5,000 nucleotides of DNA from an uncultured Oxalobacteraceae bacterium (GTDB lineage Bacteria > Pseudomonadota > Gammaproteobacteria > Burkholderiales > Burkholderiaceae). The stretch lies in assembly GCA_946478765.1 (NCBI GenBank), contig CAMLDH010000296.1, positions 1-5,000 of the forward strand. Reading direction: 5' to 3'. The first letter of the stretch is position 1; every line of letters begins with the position of its first letter. The position numbers were made by a program, and so were the translations under genes. Below are positions 1 through 5,000 of this stretch, one piece after another. The notes under the pieces are model-generated. The model worked only from the letters and a program-made list of their open reading frames with translations, did no database searches and had not been told where the DNA came from.

Positions 1-38
1 TTCAACGAATGAATTTCGTGGCTGTTTTTGGTGGGGAC

Positions 39-65
39 GTTGGGCTGATGAAGCGTTAGCCCAAC
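39..65. repeat. REP-like inverted repeat at the recombinase 3' end
   Basis: GTTGGGCT (39-46) and AGCCCAAC (58-65) form a perfect 8-bp stem around an 11-nt loop, followed by CTACC. From memory, intergenic palindromes of this GTTGGGCT...AGCCCAACCTAC type are dispersed in many proteobacterial genomes; that part is recalled, not searched. The stop codon of the truncated recombinase (56-58) lies in the loop and first base of the right arm, so the repeat marks the point where the recombinase gene is broken. Confidence 0.65.
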
Positions 66-574
66 CTACCGCGCTTGTTGCCTTTGGCATCGCGGATTTG
101 AACGCGCATGCGATCAGCATCGATGTCCGCCACTTGCAGGCGCAGTCCTTCGCCGAGTCGCAGGCCAAGCGTGTAGAGGATGTAAAAGAACACGCGATAG
201 CTGAGCACTTTGGTCGATGCGATGAGGTGCTGCATCTGGGCTACGGTGACGATATCAGGCAGTCTTTGTACGTGGGGCGCTTTCACCAGATCAGGCGCAG
301 GCCAAGGCAGATGCAATACATTGTCGTAATAAAATTTGAGGCCGTAGAGATCGTGTTTGAGTGTGCTCCACGAATGCGTGCGCAATAGGTCGGCGAAATA
401 GTTGGTCAGTTGCGCTTCGGTCAAGGCGTTAATCTGATAATGAAAATACTCGCCCGCACGTCGTATCGCACGCGAGTAGGCATCGATCGTTTTAGGTCGC
501 ATGCCTTTGAGTTTGAGACGTTTGAGCTGCGTCTGATAAGATTGCTCGAAATCTGGCGGGTAGTGTGGTTCCAT
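56..574 (-). pseudogene. 3'-truncated tyrosine recombinase (phage-integrase/XerD type)
   Basis: This is the N-terminal 172 residues of a tyrosine recombinase, an enzyme that cuts and rejoins DNA at specific sites. Residues about 10-90 form the SAM-like core-binding domain (LKLKGMRPKTIDAYSRAIRR, then LTEAQLTNYFADLL). The catalytic domain begins near residue 105. The first catalytic arginine is visible in YTLGLRLGEGLRL (R139, with E142), and the probable beta-hairpin lysine in RDAKGNK (K164). After GNK homology stops: the usual continuation with the H-x-x-R box and the tyrosine nucleophile is missing, and the frame closes inside a REP-like palindrome. Relatives are about 290-300 residues, so roughly 40% is lost and it should be inactive. 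The ATG at 574 has an AAGGA 9 nt upstream (584-588). Similar recombinases accompany some IS91-family elements (recalled), but no IS91 transposase is present here. Confidence 0.85.
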
Positions 575-583
575 GACCGTTCA

Positions 584-588
584 TCCTT
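584..588 (-). promoter_or_regulatory. Ribosome binding site of the truncated recombinase
   Basis: AAGGA read on the minus strand, 9 nt before the ATG at 574-572. It supports that start. Another ATG at 584-582 is out of frame. Confidence 0.6.
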
Positions 589-712
589 GTGTTGTGTTGT
601 ACACCCGGTATTTGGGTTAGGATGGATTTTAATTTTTATTGGCGGATCATAAAATGGCAGTGCGAGGATTTCTCCGCGTAGCGGCTTCGTCCAACTCGAT
701 ATTCGACACTGA

Positions 713-727
713 CGTACCTTCGGTACG
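713..727. repeat. Short perfect hairpin
   Basis: CGTACC (713-718) and GGTACG (722-727) pair around a TTC triloop. TGA at 710-712 and TCA just beyond the right arm extend it with a bulge. No T-tract follows on either strand, so it is not a standard intrinsic terminator. It may be a leftover of a mobile-element end. Confidence 0.5.
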
Positions 728-779
728 CTTGTCAACATAGACGTTAGAGCGCACAGCAGGTTCGTAGCAGTCGTCGGCA

Positions 780-975
780 ATGCATATTCAGCACGAGCTC
801 TCAGTCGCCCAGCTCCGAAACGCGCTCGAGCTGACGCCTTGAGCGATGTGTACCTCTGCGGATGTCTTCTGCGTCAGCGTTGCGAACCAGCGCTCGACTT
901 GGTTCAACCACGACGCCGAGGTGGGCGTGAAGTGGACATGGAGAGGAATTGCTGATGCGCTTTCAACGGGCGGTG
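780..975 (-). pseudogene. IS630-family transposase remnant
   Basis: On the minus strand the frame through 940-866 reads HVHFTPTSASWLNQVERWF followed by ATLTQK, the hallmark C-terminal block of IS630-type DDE transposases; the glutamate in WLNQVE (codon 895-893) is the third catalytic acidic residue. Just upstream, a different frame gives PLKAHQQF (around 975-947), matching the usual ...WLKAHPxF that precedes HxHFTP, so a frameshift separates the two pieces near 940-947. Downstream of TQK the normal RRGVHRS-like continuation is scrambled and the frame stops at about 788. The rest of the transposase (about 340 residues in a full copy) and both element ends are absent. It is a decayed fragment with no activity; the outer limits given are approximate. 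Confidence 0.8.
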
Positions 976-1127
976 GCATACAGTACGGCTCGCTGAACGC
1001 TCCGCGCAATACCACTGATTGGGCGCTGGGTGGGAGGGGAGCAAGGGACATCGGCCGGAACCGGGTGCTGGATTGGGGCTTCGGCTTTGCGGTGTGTTGG
1101 GGGAGTAGTCATTCGAAGCAAACAAAT
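976..1127 (+). other. Leader region of the xylanase gene, no gene seen
   Basis: This G-rich stretch separates the IS630 remnant from the xylanase ribosome binding site. The xylanase promoter should lie here or within the remnant, but I see no hexamer pair close enough to the sigma-70 consensus to name. An in-frame extension of the xylanase frame back to 846 crosses this stretch and the antisense of the transposase remnant, and has no protein character of its own. Confidence 0.4.
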
Positions 1128-1134
1128 AGGAGGG
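1128..1134 (+). promoter_or_regulatory. Strong ribosome binding site that sets the xylanase start
   Basis: AGGAGGG sits 8 nt before ATG 1143. It is nearly a full Shine-Dalgarno match, and the codons after this ATG encode a signal peptide. This decides against the in-frame ATG at 846, which would add 99 residues ahead of the signal peptide. Confidence 0.9.
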
Positions 1135-1142
1135 TGGACATT

Positions 1143-2759
1143 ATGAACGTAGCGCGAAGAGTTTTGATGTCATTGCAGTTTCTTGTCGGCGGAATATTCG
1201 GTCTGGTTATCGCCATCAACAATGTCCACGCGGCATCGGGCGGCAGCAAAAGTGCGGGCGCGACTTGCGCCAATCCGAAGTCGCTGACGTTGCCGACCGT
1301 ATTGAATGGCGCCGCGAACACCTGCCTGGTCACCTCCGGCACCATCGACAGCGTCGCTTCCAAGGGGGCGGAGACGTTCACGATCAACGGTGTGTCGTAC
1401 AACAACCTGTGGTCGAACCAGATGCCTGCGCGCATCAATGACAACTATTACATCCGCTACGTGGCCAAGCAGAGCGGGGCGCAGTTGCAGATCAACGGCA
1501 GCAACAGTAGCAGCGGTGCCGTCAGCTACACCCTGACGGTCAGTGTCGGCGGCAGCGGTAGCGGTACGACCAGCCTGTCGCCGGGCAACTACAGCTACAA
1601 GGCGGGCAGCGCGGTCACGATCACGGCAACTCCGCTTCAGGGTTCCGTCTTCTCCAGCTGGAGCGGCGCCGTCATGGGCAGCACGAATCCGCTAACGATC
1701 ACCATGGACGGCAACAAGTCGCTGACCGCGAACTTCACTACGCAGAGCAGCGGCGGCATTGCAGGAGGGGTGAAGTCCCTAGCGAGCTTCCCGATCGGCG
1801 TGGCAGTGAATGCTGGCAACGAGAACAACAGCATTATCAACAGCAGCACCAGCTCACAGCAGCAGGCCGTCGTGCTCCCCAATTTCAGCCAGATGACGGC
1901 AGGCAATATCATGAAGATGGGCTACCTGCATCCCCTGGAGAACACCTTTACTTTCAGCCAGGCCGATGAGTTCGTTTCCTTTGCGCGCTCCAATGGCATG
2001 AATGTACATGGACATACGCTGATCTGGCATTCCGATTACCAGGTTCCTAGTTTCATGAAGAACTACAGCGGAGACTTTGCCGCCATGCTGAAGAACCATG
2101 TCCAAACCATCGTCTCGCACTTCCAAGGTAAGGTGGTGAGCTGGGACGTGGTCAACGAGGCGCTGGCCGACGATGGGGAACCGACGGTAGGGAACAACCT
2201 GCGCAGCACCGTGTTCAGCCAGAAGATGGGCCTCAACTTCATCGATCAGGCCTTCATCAACGCGCGCGCCGCCGATCCGCAAGTCGACCTGTTCTACAAC
2301 GACTACAACCTCGAAGCCAACTGGCAGAAGACGTGGAACATGCTGGCCCTTGTCGATGGCATGAGATCACGCGGCGTACCCATTACGGGCGTGGGTTTCC
2401 AGATGCACGTGAGCATTGATTGGCCGAGCATCAGCGCGATCGAGTCGTCCCTGAAGGCCGTGGCAGATCGCGGCTTGAAGGTGAAGATCACCGAACTGGA
2501 CGTGAGCATGAAGAACGCGTACTCCACTTTCACTTTGGAAGCGGCTACCCGGCAGAAGCAGCGCTATCACGACATCGTCGCGGCCTACCTGCGGGCCGTG
2601 CCACCTGCGCAGAGGGCCGGTATCACGGTCTGGGGGGTGTGGGACGCCGACAGCTGGATCAATGAACCTTCAAAGCCGGCCTGGCCCTTGCTGTTCGATG
2701 ACAACTTCCAGGCCAAGCCTGCACTGCAGGGCTTCAAGGACGCTTTGCTGGGGAACTGA
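1143..2759 (+). CDS. Secreted GH10 endo-1,4-beta-xylanase with two N-terminal accessory modules
   Basis: A 538-residue enzyme that hydrolyses internal beta-1,4 bonds of xylan by the retaining mechanism, outside the cytoplasm. Residues 1-30 are a signal peptide (MNVARR, hydrophobic core, cleavage after VHA). Residues about 40-126 form a module with two cysteines (C42, C61) and INGVSYNNLW that I do not recognise; it may be a carbohydrate-binding beta-sandwich. Residues about 129-199 resemble an InlB B-repeat-like module (GSAVTITATPLQGSVFSSWSG ending in LTANF). A short Ser/Gly linker leads to the GH10 domain, about 215-536, of normal family length. Motifs: GHTLIWH (H291), WDVVNEA with acid/base E339, YNDYN, GFQMH, ITELDV with nucleophile E451, WGVWDADSW, PLLFDDN. 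The usual TxEN motif is TAGN here (G254). No neighbouring xylan genes are in view, so it looks monocistronic. The GH10 call is certain; module identities are inferred. Confidence 0.96.
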   Translation: MNVARRVLMSLQFLVGGIFGLVIAINNVHAASGGSKSAGATCANPKSLTLPTVLNGAANTCLVTSGTIDSVASKGAETFTINGVSYNNLWSNQMPARINDNYYIRYVAKQSGAQLQINGSNSSSGAVSYTLTVSVGGSGSGTTSLSPGNYSYKAGSAVTITATPLQGSVFSSWSGAVMGSTNPLTITMDGNKSLTANFTTQSSGGIAGGVKSLASFPIGVAVNAGNENNSIINSSTSSQQQAVVLPNFSQMTAGNIMKMGYLHPLENTFTFSQADEFVSFARSNGMNVHGHTLIWHSDYQVPSFMKNYSGDFAAMLKNHVQTIVSHFQGKVVSWDVVNEALADDGEPTVGNNLRSTVFSQKMGLNFIDQAFINARAADPQVDLFYNDYNLEANWQKTWNMLALVDGMRSRGVPITGVGFQMHVSIDWPSISAIESSLKAVADRGLKVKITELDVSMKNAYSTFTLEAATRQKQRYHDIVAAYLRAVPPAQRAGITVWGVWDADSWINEPSKPAWPLLFDDNFQAKPALQGFKDALLGN

Positions 2760-2763
2760 GCTT

Positions 2764-2778
2764 CCACGGATGCCGTGG
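2764..2778 (+). terminator. Possible weak terminator or 3'-end hairpin of the xylanase mRNA
   Basis: CCACGG (2764-2769) and CCGTGG (2773-2778) form a perfect 6-bp stem with an ATG triloop, starting 5 nt after the xylanase stop codon. No run of T follows, so it is not a standard intrinsic terminator. It may protect the 3' end of the message or be chance. A palindromic CGTGGCCACG (2774-2783) overlaps its right arm. Confidence 0.3.
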
Positions 2779-2900
2779 CCACGAGATCGCACATCACACC
2801 GATCCCGTGGCCGGGCGTTGCAGGCGCAGGCTTCCGCTTTACTGGCTGCGGTCGAGCAGCACGGAGAGTGCAAGCGTCTGAGCCGGCCTGGATCTATGTC

Positions 2901-2917
2901 GCCGCTTCAGCAGCGGC
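2901..2917. repeat. Small GC-rich stem-loop in the convergent region
   Basis: GCCGCT (2901-2906) and AGCGGC (2912-2917) pair around TCAGC. It lies between the two converging genes and could slow polymerase from either side, but no T-tract follows on either strand. Confidence 0.3.
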
Positions 2918-3002
2918 TCTCGTTGAAGTCGCGTGCCCGTAGAGGCAACAAACCTTCCTGTCCGCTTCTTCCTTCGATTTCAATACGTCTCTGAGCGGAT
3001 GC

Positions 3003-3156
3003 TTACTGTTCTCCCTGCTTCCAGTACAGGCCGGTGCCGATCACGGCGCCGCCTTCCTCCGCAACAAAGCCGGCGCCCAAGCCAAGGACGAATTGCCAAT
3101 CTTCGAGACGATGCGGCCAGTGCATAGCTTGCGGTATCGGTGGTCTGGATGGTCAT
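3003..3156 (-). pseudogene. Remnant of a GNAT-family N-acetyltransferase gene
   Basis: Read on the minus strand, an ATG at 3156 opens a frame MTIQTTDTA that resembles a GNAT N-terminus. About 25 nt on, homology moves to another frame: QAMHWPHRLEDWQFVLGLG, then GAGFVAEEGGAVIGTGLYW and KQGEQ, ending at TAA 3005-3003. From memory this matches residues about 20-65 of a group of about 150-residue GNAT proteins (usual form: LSQAxxWPHRxEDW ... FVAEExGxxxGTALxW ... HASLGMVIV). The next two codons after the stop still read Ala-Ser, as in HASLG. The remnant therefore lacks the segment between the N-terminus and QAMHW, and all of the acetyl-CoA-binding motif. It begins 51 nt after the ghrA stop on the same strand, so the intact gene was probably the last member of that operon. 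It cannot be functional. Confidence 0.75.
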
Positions 3157-3207
3157 GGTGTTTTCCCGTGTTTCGGGGTTCAGTTTAAACGCCAGCGATT
3201 CTTTTTC

Positions 3208-4134
3208 TTAATAGCCTTTGCTGCGATCGATCAGATCGGACAAGGGCTCGCCGCGCTGATGCCGTCTCAAGTTCTCGATCAGTACCGGCGCTGCCGTTTC
3301 AGGCTGGGTCATGCTGGCCACGTGCGGTGTAATGAACACGCGCGGGTGACGCCACAAAGGGTCGTTCGGCGGCAGTGGCTCCGGATCGGTCACGTCGAGA
3401 ATGGCGCGCGACAGCTGGCCCGAATCGAGTGCCGCGAGCAGGGCCTGTTGGTCGAGGTGGGCGCCGCGCCCGACATTGACCACACTGGCGCCGCGCGGCA
3501 GTGCTGCAAACAGGCGCTGCCCGAGGATCCCGCGGGTCGCTTCGGTCAGGGGAACCAGGCAGATCAGCATCTCGCATTTGCTCAGGAACTCGGTCAGGGA
3601 TGCCTCCCCCGCATAGCAGCTTACCCCCGCAATCTGCTTTGCCGAACGGTTCCATCCATGGCGCTGGAAGCCGAAGGTGCCAAGCCGCTCGAGCACCGCC
3701 TGGCCCAGTACGCCAAGTCCCATGACACCGACCGAGCGCGCCGATGCCGGCAGCACTTCGATCGGATCCCATGCGCCGGACGGCTGCATGCGCACATAAT
3801 CAAACAAGTCGCGGTGCAACGCCAGCACCGACATCGTCACATATTCGATCATGCCGTTGATGATGCCAGGTTCGACCATGCGCACCACCTGGACCTGCGG
3901 CGGGATCGCCGAGAAGTCGATATGGTCGATGCCGGCGCCGGATGAAAACAGCACCTTCAGATTGGGCAGTGAAGCAAGGAAGGCGGCCGGCGCCTGCCAT
4001 GCAATCAGGTACTCGACCTCCTCAAGGTCGCCGGTATCGGGCCAGACCCGAAAATCGAGGTCGGGCGCCTGTTCGGCAAAGTACTGCGCCCATGCCGCTG
4101 CGCGTGGCGCGTCCGATCTGTAAAGAACACTCAT
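3208..4134 (-). CDS. ghrA: Glyoxylate/hydroxypyruvate reductase A (D-2-hydroxyacid dehydrogenase)
   Basis: A 308-residue cytoplasmic enzyme of the D-isomer 2-hydroxyacid dehydrogenase family, close in length to E. coli GhrA (312). By family it reduces glyoxylate to glycolate and hydroxypyruvate to D-glycerate, preferring NADPH. Visible features: substrate-side segment LFSSGAGIDHID (63-74); dinucleotide fold SVGVMGLGVLG with GxGxxG at 139-144; WNRSAK (161-166), whose Arg-Ser follows the second beta strand as in NADP-preferring GhrA; catalytic triad R223 (VNVGRG), E252 (DPEP) and H271 (TPHVAS). I place the start at ATG 4134, with GGAG at 4140-4143 five nt upstream and the GhrA-like MSVLYRSD. 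The in-frame ATG at 4221 would add 29 residues, encoded partly by an inserted repeat element. The dehydratase gene lies upstream on the same strand and a dead GNAT gene downstream. A related 2-ketoacid substrate is possible. Confidence 0.93.
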   Translation of the reverse strand: MSVLYRSDAPRAAAWAQYFAEQAPDLDFRVWPDTGDLEEVEYLIAWQAPAAFLASLPNLKVLFSSGAGIDHIDFSAIPPQVQVVRMVEPGIINGMIEYVTMSVLALHRDLFDYVRMQPSGAWDPIEVLPASARSVGVMGLGVLGQAVLERLGTFGFQRHGWNRSAKQIAGVSCYAGEASLTEFLSKCEMLICLVPLTEATRGILGQRLFAALPRGASVVNVGRGAHLDQQALLAALDSGQLSRAILDVTDPEPLPPNDPLWRHPRVFITPHVASMTQPETAAPVLIENLRRHQRGEPLSDLIDRSKGY

Positions 4135-4143: not shown

Positions 4144-4240
4144 ATGGGCTTGATGATTTTTCCTAGGTGCCGCGCAGGAATAAGATGTGCATTTTGGCGG
4201 TCGTAGCGGGATGCGATGCAAGGCGGTGAAGCAGGGAATT

Positions 4241-4259
4241 CGTGAGGCACGGCCTCACG
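4241..4259. repeat. Internal hairpin 1 of the inserted element
   Basis: CGTGAGGC (4241-4248) and GCCTCACG (4252-4259) form a perfect 8-bp stem with an ACG triloop. Confidence 0.85.
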
Positions 4260-4270
4260 CCTGCGAAACG

Positions 4271-4292
4271 GTATCCGCTTGCAAGCGGATAC
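4271..4292. repeat. Perfect 22-bp palindrome inside the inserted element
   Basis: The 22 bases are their own reverse complement: left half GTATCCGCTTG, right half CAAGCGGATAC. As RNA or single-stranded DNA it would fold into a 9-bp stem with a TGCA loop; as duplex DNA it has the symmetry of a dimer-binding operator. It lies near the centre of the element. Confidence 0.9.
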
Positions 4293-4308
4293 TCCTCTCC
4301 GGCCCGAC

Positions 4309-4324
4309 GCAGTGCGAGCACTGC
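4309..4324. repeat. Internal hairpin 3 of the inserted element
   Basis: GCAGTG (4309-4314) and CACTGC (4319-4324) form a 6-bp stem with a CGAG tetraloop. It is the last of three hairpins enclosed by the terminal inverted repeats. Confidence 0.75.
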
Positions 4325-4395
4325 TAGGGATGGGCAACGCAGCAGCGCGCCCGCTACGGCCAGCAAAAATGTGCAGATTATTTCTGCGCGGTGCC

Positions 4396-5000
4396 TTACC
4401 AGCCGCCGACCCAGCCCTCGAACAAGCCTTCGGGCAGCGTGTCGGCATTCGAACCGCGCAGGAAATCGAAGTCGCATCCCTGGTGCGCCTGCTCGACACT
4501 GCGGCTAAACATCGCACGATAGCCGCGGGTGTGCGACTCAACCCGAGGTGGCAGCGCGGCGCGCCGTTTTTCCATTTCCTCAGCGCTGACCAGAATGTCA
4601 AGCCGGCGCTCGGCGACGTCCAGCTCGATCATGTCGCCGGTGCGCACACAGGCCAGCGGGCCGCCGACGGCCGCTTCGGGCGACACATGCAGGATTGCCG
4701 TGCCGTAGGCAGTGCCGCTCATGCGCGCGTCGGAGATCCGCACCATGTCCATGACGCCCCGTTCCATCAGCCGGCGCGGAATCGGGAGCATTCCCCATTC
4801 CGGCATCGCAGCGCCCACCGGGCCCACGTTGCGCAGTATCAGCACGCTGTTTTCGTCGATCCCCAGCGCCGGGTCGTCGATCTGGTCCGCCAGCGACTGT
4901 ACGTCCTCGAACACGACTGCCGGACCGCGGTGCTGGAACAGGTTGCGGTCAGCGGCGCAGGCTTTGATGACGGCGCCATCCGGCGCCAGGCTGCCCTTGA
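4396..5000 (-). CDS. IlvD/Edd-family dehydratase, C-terminal part (runs off the right edge)
   Basis: The last 200 codons of a gene whose start lies beyond 5000; the frame stays open to the edge. The family uses an Fe-S cluster and Mg2+ to remove water from 2,3-dihydroxy acids or sugar acids, giving 2-keto acids. Visible motifs: GSLAPDGAVIK at the edge, HRGPAVVFED, VLILRNVGP, MPEWGMLPIP, then ISDARMSGTAYG with the serine thought to act as catalytic base (codon 4719-4717), EAAVGGPLA, DMIELDV, and a GCDFDFL tail. That tail is, as I recall, typical of the sugar-acid branch (L-arabinonate/D-xylonate dehydratase-like) rather than the branched-chain amino-acid enzyme. Full members have about 570-600 residues. 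The substrate cannot be fixed from this part, so no symbol is given. The TAA stop (4398-4396) directly touches the inserted repeat element, and ghrA follows on the same strand. Confidence 0.93.
   Translation of the reverse strand, partial: KGSLAPDGAVIKACAADRNLFQHRGPAVVFEDVQSLADQIDDPALGIDENSVLILRNVGPVGAAMPEWGMLPIPRRLMERGVMDMVRISDARMSGTAYGTAILHVSPEAAVGGPLACVRTGDMIELDVAERRLDILVSAEEMEKRRAALPPRVESHTRGYRAMFSRSVEQAHQGCDFDFLRGSNADTLPEGLFEGWVGGW

Follow-up and report, generated by a model that had tools for sequence, protein, structure and literature searches.

A nested palindromic element between dehydratase and ghrA-like genes, probably a composite MITE mobilised in trans by an ISAzo13-type transposase

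The intergenic element and its gene neighbourhood

The window, as the whole 5,000-nt stretch of DNA analysed is called here, carries on its minus strand the end of a gene for an IlvD/Edd-type dehydratase (4396..4998; PF24877, 180.6 bits) and a gene for a ghrA-like 2-hydroxyacid dehydrogenase (3208..4134; PF02826, 156.2 bits). From the dehydratase stop codon at 4396-4398(-) to the ghrA start at 4134(-) the distance is 261 nt, and this operon is transcribed from the minus strand, opposite to the strand on which the element described below was modelled. Elsewhere in the window were observed a fragment of an integron-integrase-like tyrosine recombinase at 56-574(-) (PF13495, 49.4 bits; TIGR02249, 72 bits with a cut-off of 265), a small IS630-like transposase remnant at 788-1051(-) that scored below curated cut-offs and, at 846-2759(+), a family 10 glycosyl hydrolase that also has CBM64-like and Flg_new_2 domains.

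An earlier note on this DNA had proposed an inverted-repeat element at 4166-4395 between the two genes, and its presence was confirmed by the pattern of its ends and by comparison of its fold with shuffled sequence. The inverted ends read GCGCAGGAATAAGATGTGCATTTT at 4172-4195(+) and GCGCAGAAATAATCTGCACATTTT at 4366-4389(-), and a pattern covering both (up to 3 mismatches) matched the window twice, compared to a mean of 0.01 matches in 200 shuffles, none of which reached 2. Outside these ends, GGTGCC occurs in direct orientation at 4166-4171 and 4390-4395; as this hexamer is nearly self-complementary, its two direct copies also pair, and the terminal inverted repeats that include it extend over 4166..4199(+) and 4362..4395(-). 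The 230 bases are predicted to fold into a long closing stem with three inner hairpins, with z-scores of -9.4 on the plus strand and -6.7 on the minus strand (0 of 200 shuffles as good on either). Like a MITE (a non-autonomous DNA transposon), the element thus has terminal inverted repeats, is short (230 bp) and is without a transposase gene, as judged from profile evidence on the five window proteins; overlapping ORFs are long open frames in unrelated phase.

The element was found to consist of two parts, a shell of about 160 nt and an insert of about 72-75 nt that forms a double hairpin (DH). The DH insert at 4225..4296(+) is the only part that matches DH loci elsewhere, is absent from the 12 other copies of alignment A1 and has a structure that covaries among 12 DH copies; its hairpins lie at about 4231-4264 and 4271-4292. 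The shell has a hairpin of its own at 4302..4335(+), as placed by alignment A1 and the consensus fold. Thus, the reading of the locus as a MITE-like insertion stood, but its build from a shell and a separate DH repeat had been missed.

Comparison with relatives pointed to a formerly tight junction. Both genes were found at 4 of the 27 ghrA loci fetched, and all four show a dehydratase-ghrA spacing of 0-10 nt (10 nt at L002, 0 at L004, 6 at L005 and 5 at L006); the other 23 loci had no dehydratase match and are uninformative on spacing. The junction that the earlier note had suggested comparing in relatives is close-spaced in these four, where the dehydratase ends in TGG-TAG (L002 and L006), TAA (L004) or TGA (L005). 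In close metagenomic relatives, seven full-length ghrA proteins show 89-93% identity. An insertion accounts for the gap inside this otherwise tight operon: the window copy would have landed at the dehydratase stop codon, so that the ghrA start now lies 261 nt behind it instead of 0-10 nt. Judging from this arrangement, the element would probably break the close or translational coupling of the dehydratase and ghrA and, as the fold predicts, probably place a strong hairpin in their mRNA.

Copies in other genomes and nested build

Searches of other genomes recovered the two parts both separately and together. At least 8 of 199 genomes of the Denitromonas family (L026, G021) match, all at query positions 44-132, which correspond to the inner double hairpin. 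At least 6 of 399 genomes of the Denitromonas order match at 1e-6; in five of these the outer arms are present but the middle is missing, and the sixth, G861, has the double hairpin alone. When the window copy was aligned with 12 of 18 other copies (alignment A1; L080, L092, L093, L100, L102 and L103 were dropped as truncated, irregular or undelimited), the shell was of near-constant length, 152-170 nt as cut, with one insert peculiar to the window copy. The covariance model built from these 13 copies, R1, matches the whole composite element (4166..4395, plus strand in the model's orientation) at 4165-4396 with 147 bits, a score to which the window copy itself contributed as one of the 13. R1 detected matches in at least 51 of the 145 G524-family genomes (E≤0.001), with up to at least 20 in one genome. 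All these counts are lower bounds, as the best 4, 2 and 20 candidates per genome were scored for the Denitromonas family, the Denitromonas order and the G524 family, respectively.

In these relatives, many dispersed copies per genome are present, as expected of a MITE, and they stand at loci with different flanks. In G907, seven equal-score copies (L155-L161, of the GTA-type defined below) occupy seven places with the same printed element sequence; a mobiliser was not found in this genome, where a profile search showed PF07592 to be absent. Because both second copies and a close-spaced junction were found in relatives, the case against insertion that the earlier note had foreseen, the lack of any second copy and any empty site, does not apply. 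A LysR protein beside one copy (G925) has few named relatives, which trend betaproteobacterial.

Other searches were negative within their scope. The window element gave no match to plasmids, and neither did three relatives of the element; it likewise gave none to phages, nor did window positions 1-3200 match plasmids. Three patterns run against viral contigs returned 0, 1 and 1 stretches, and the two loci concerned (L040 and L041) were, on reading, without such an element. Among the 22 genomes behind the ghrA relatives one matched, over 26 bases inside a coding region, which was taken as chance. In 299 genomes of the G002 order the end pattern gave 26 matches in 22 genomes, each with 2 mismatches, compared to 11 for a backwards control; an inward-facing pair was absent among the matches listed, and these genomes lend no support. 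A description of the element was not found in the literature searched, which included few subscription papers and did not cover ISfinder; as far as these searches go, the composite MITE is undescribed, of a known kind but with an unusual nested build.

The nesting recurs in relatives, as the double hairpin also occurs without the shell, and composites of the two are present at several loci of two genomes. G917 has 18 inward-facing end pairs 112-341 bp long, 7 of them exactly 160 bp, and in G925 two of six pairs measure 160 bp and four 231-232 bp. Six composites carry the DH insert reversed with respect to the window copy (L139, L140, L142-L145), three carry another hairpin-rich insert (L138, L141, L185) and two carry both kinds (L181, L182). 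Identical composites with different flanks were found at L139 and L140 and again at L181 and L182, and these composites therefore moved or were copied as units. At one locus (L033), DH repeats stand in tandem, in about three units. The double hairpin as a REP of RAYT transposases was considered and is unsupported, as the motif was detected at 0 of 23 Y1_Tnp loci from 11 of 12 genomes in a crude pattern search confined to the flanks retrieved.

Both parts show covariation. In alignment A4, for which 42 copies were chosen and fitted to the structure of the model, pairing holds in 95.2% of cells, and both sides have changed in 16 of 29 pairs, a level that no slid version and none of 500 shuffles reached. 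For the double hairpin, 14 of 23 pairs are changed on both sides among 12 copies (alignment A5; L032 and L142, the latter mis-cut in A3, were excluded), again more than in any of 500 shuffles or any slid version. Cells with G-U outnumber those with A-C by 74 to 15 in the 42 copies (34 to 15 without one fixed column) and by 18 to 1 in the double hairpin, a comparison biased towards G-U because the structures were predicted on that same strand. In a possible but rather doubtful reading, the folded single strand would itself be under selection, as the covarying pairs and the excess of G-U over A-C on one strand would suggest, and the shell would be a modular cassette holder that captures hairpin repeats time and again in either orientation, its composites then spreading as new transposons. 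Capture, and perhaps spread as well, would then take place in the form of single-stranded hairpin DNA.

Shell ends, target sites and the ISAzo13 family

The window's subfamily is carried by G917, G925 and G959, typically as C-TWA-GGGCCCGCGCAGGAATAAGTT ... AACTTATTCCTGCGCGGGCCC-TWA-G. At many loci of these genomes the columns that correspond to GGTGCC show GGGCCC or GGGGCC when followed inward from either end, and since the same columns are inverted repeat in relatives, GGTGCC in the window makes up the outermost six bases of that repeat. Scoring of 88 chosen copies, mostly the best-scoring ones and not a random sample, with the boundaries of about 21 set by hand, separated 46 GG-type from 42 GTA-type copies. 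TWA was present at both ends of 28 GG-type copies and missing from one or both ends of the other 18; 22 of the 28 scorable copies have the same trimer on both sides and 6 differ, a concordance with a one-sided p of 0.0019 against even chance. Among these six, L142 and L145 of G925 share the left flank and differ in the right, which suggests recombination between copies. The window copy is itself unequal, with CTA at 4163..4165(+), the expected place of the 3-bp TWA duplication, and TTA at 4396..4398(+), which is the dehydratase TAA stop on the minus strand; its duplication either decayed or never matched.

These ends are shared with an insertion sequence, the kind of partner that the earlier note had proposed to look for, and it was found in two genomes. 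The IS end sequence is present in 2 of 100 relatives, G917 and G925. Six contig ends of G917 carry the end motif, each after TWA; from there the sequence continues to the contig edge, as expected of a long repeat, and the IS interior is unassembled. In G925 (L194) the end motif leads into a 347-aa frame that matches ISAzo13 transposase (NF033519, 498 bits with a cut-off of 200; PF07592, 389 bits); since positions 1-240 of the 308 in the PF07592 profile were covered, the gene is C-terminally truncated. When the two window ends are compared with the IS end of G917, 17 and 18 of the first 22 bases are identical; over 34 bases the left end agrees at 23 and the right end at 22, with divergence beyond about 22 bases, and the MITE ends of L139 and L149 agree at 23 to 26 of 34. 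A second ISAzo13-type IS of G925 (L201) is bounded by CTAAGG...CCTAAG, that is, by a TAA duplication, and 3-bp duplications are ascribed to ISAzo13 in the part of the source consulted (PMC10045372).

Further end motifs were observed in G917. Solo motifs of about 20 bp stand behind TWA at L244, L246, L252, L253 and L254 and are followed by sequence unlike the shell. At L243 (645-8755), two inward-facing motifs lie 8.1 kb apart around apparent host genes; the pair may reflect chance, half elements or a larger mobile unit. A larger transposon was considered for this 8.1-kb stretch and set aside, as the large ORFs listed look like host genes.

PF07592 was detected in only 1 of 18 MITE-bearing genomes searched, and in the others the motor would have been lost, be a different one or have been missed. 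Its absence from the other 17 would suit a MITE that depends on a different DDE transposase, for instance an IS630/Tc1-like enzyme duplicating TA in CTAG, and the IS630-like remnant in the window (28.5 bits, cut-off 100) points the same way. So do the GTA-type copies: all 30 that were scorable (12 of the 42 were not) have TAA...TTA without a 3-bp direct repeat, mostly as C-TA-AGTAC...GTACT-TA-G, which would fit TA in CTAG. However, the ends of the window's subfamily are common to the ISAzo13-type IS and the GG-type trimers are concordant, and another mobiliser is unlikely.

Stop codons that close at least 100 open codons were found within 3 nt of 45 of 142 scorable ends of the 88 chosen copies, compared to 9.7% of 1623 control stops in the same flanks. 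Together with the strong fold, the covariation and the excess of G-U over A-C cells on one strand, this position is what would be predicted for a structured RNA of the host, a terminator or a REP-like regulatory repeat, retained at gene ends because of its function. By contrast, the position also follows from the target, which contains TAA or TAG, copies stand at unrelated loci with a target-like flank, and genes that end in such stops show almost no strand preference, 12 running into the element on the model strand and 11 on the other (n=23, among 37 copies). Only one weak terminator-like site was detected, with 0.6 expected, and Rfam gave 0 matches in the window and, at E≤1, four in 12 related loci, all below the gathering score; one of these, che1 (33.5 of 54.1 bits), overlaps a DH stretch of L033. 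A conserved host function is thus quite improbable as an explanation. An integron attC reading of the GTTAGGC ends in G524 presumably does not hold, the boxes facing outward, and was dropped. The form in which the earlier note had cast the MITE, with GGTGCC as a 6-bp target duplication, is scarcely credible: direct copies do stand on both sides, but their near self-complementarity lets two direct copies pair, the GGGCCC and GGGGCC forms in G917, G925 and G959 belong to the element, and the 3-bp TWA lies outside them.

Proposed mechanism and comparison with known systems

Taken together, these results make it probable that the window element is a composite MITE whose shell ends are recognised in trans by an ISAzo13-family transposase, with TWA duplicated at CTWAG-like sites. 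In this mechanism, a palindromic shell of about 160 nt would be recognised at its ends, GGNNCCGCGCAGNAATAAG, and inserted at CTWAG-like sites with duplication of the 3-bp TWA. Such sites would often overlap stop codons, and a gene so hit would keep a stop because TAA or TAG stands once more at the start of the inserted copy. The independent DH repeat would sit inside the shell, and such composites would spread as units. An ISAzo13-type transposase is, from the sequence comparisons, the most likely mobiliser in trans, and we infer that one moved the element in the window's organism. The explanation rests on the dispersed copies, the ends shared with the IS, the concordant trimers, the composites at multiple loci and the close gene spacing in relatives. 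Against it stand the differing trimers of the window copy, the finding of PF07592 in 1 of 18 genomes and of the IS end in 2 of 100, the truncation of L194, the divergence of the ends past about 22 bases, the 6 of 28 discordant and 18 of 46 TWA-deficient GG-type copies, and the lack of a 3-bp direct repeat in 30 of 30 GTA-type copies.

If correct, this explanation links a repeat dispersed widely through betaproteobacterial-type genomes with an IS family that has been little studied, and accounts for the position of copies at stop codons; the natural shells with and without inserts are material with which to test nested MITE growth. ISAzo13 has no occurrence in the part of the MITE review consulted (PMC10969869).

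Compared to REP/BIME and RAYT or TIR repeats, as far as the consulted part of PMC3733652 describes them, the element is similarly palindromic, extragenic, mostly behind genes and composite; unlike them, its DH motif was found at 0 of 23 Y1 loci, and it is a DDE-type IS, rather than a Y1 transposase, that its shell ends match. With the ISAzo13 family the window element shares its ends over about 22 bases and its GG-type relatives share the 3-bp duplications, whereas the window element is without a transposase gene. As in the MITEs of bacterial IS treated in the consulted part of PMC10969869, the window element is short and geneless, has inverted ends shared with an IS and occurs in dispersed copies; unlike in those MITEs, its inner part does not derive from the IS found, this part being a palindrome, conserved and covarying, into which other hairpin repeats are taken up.
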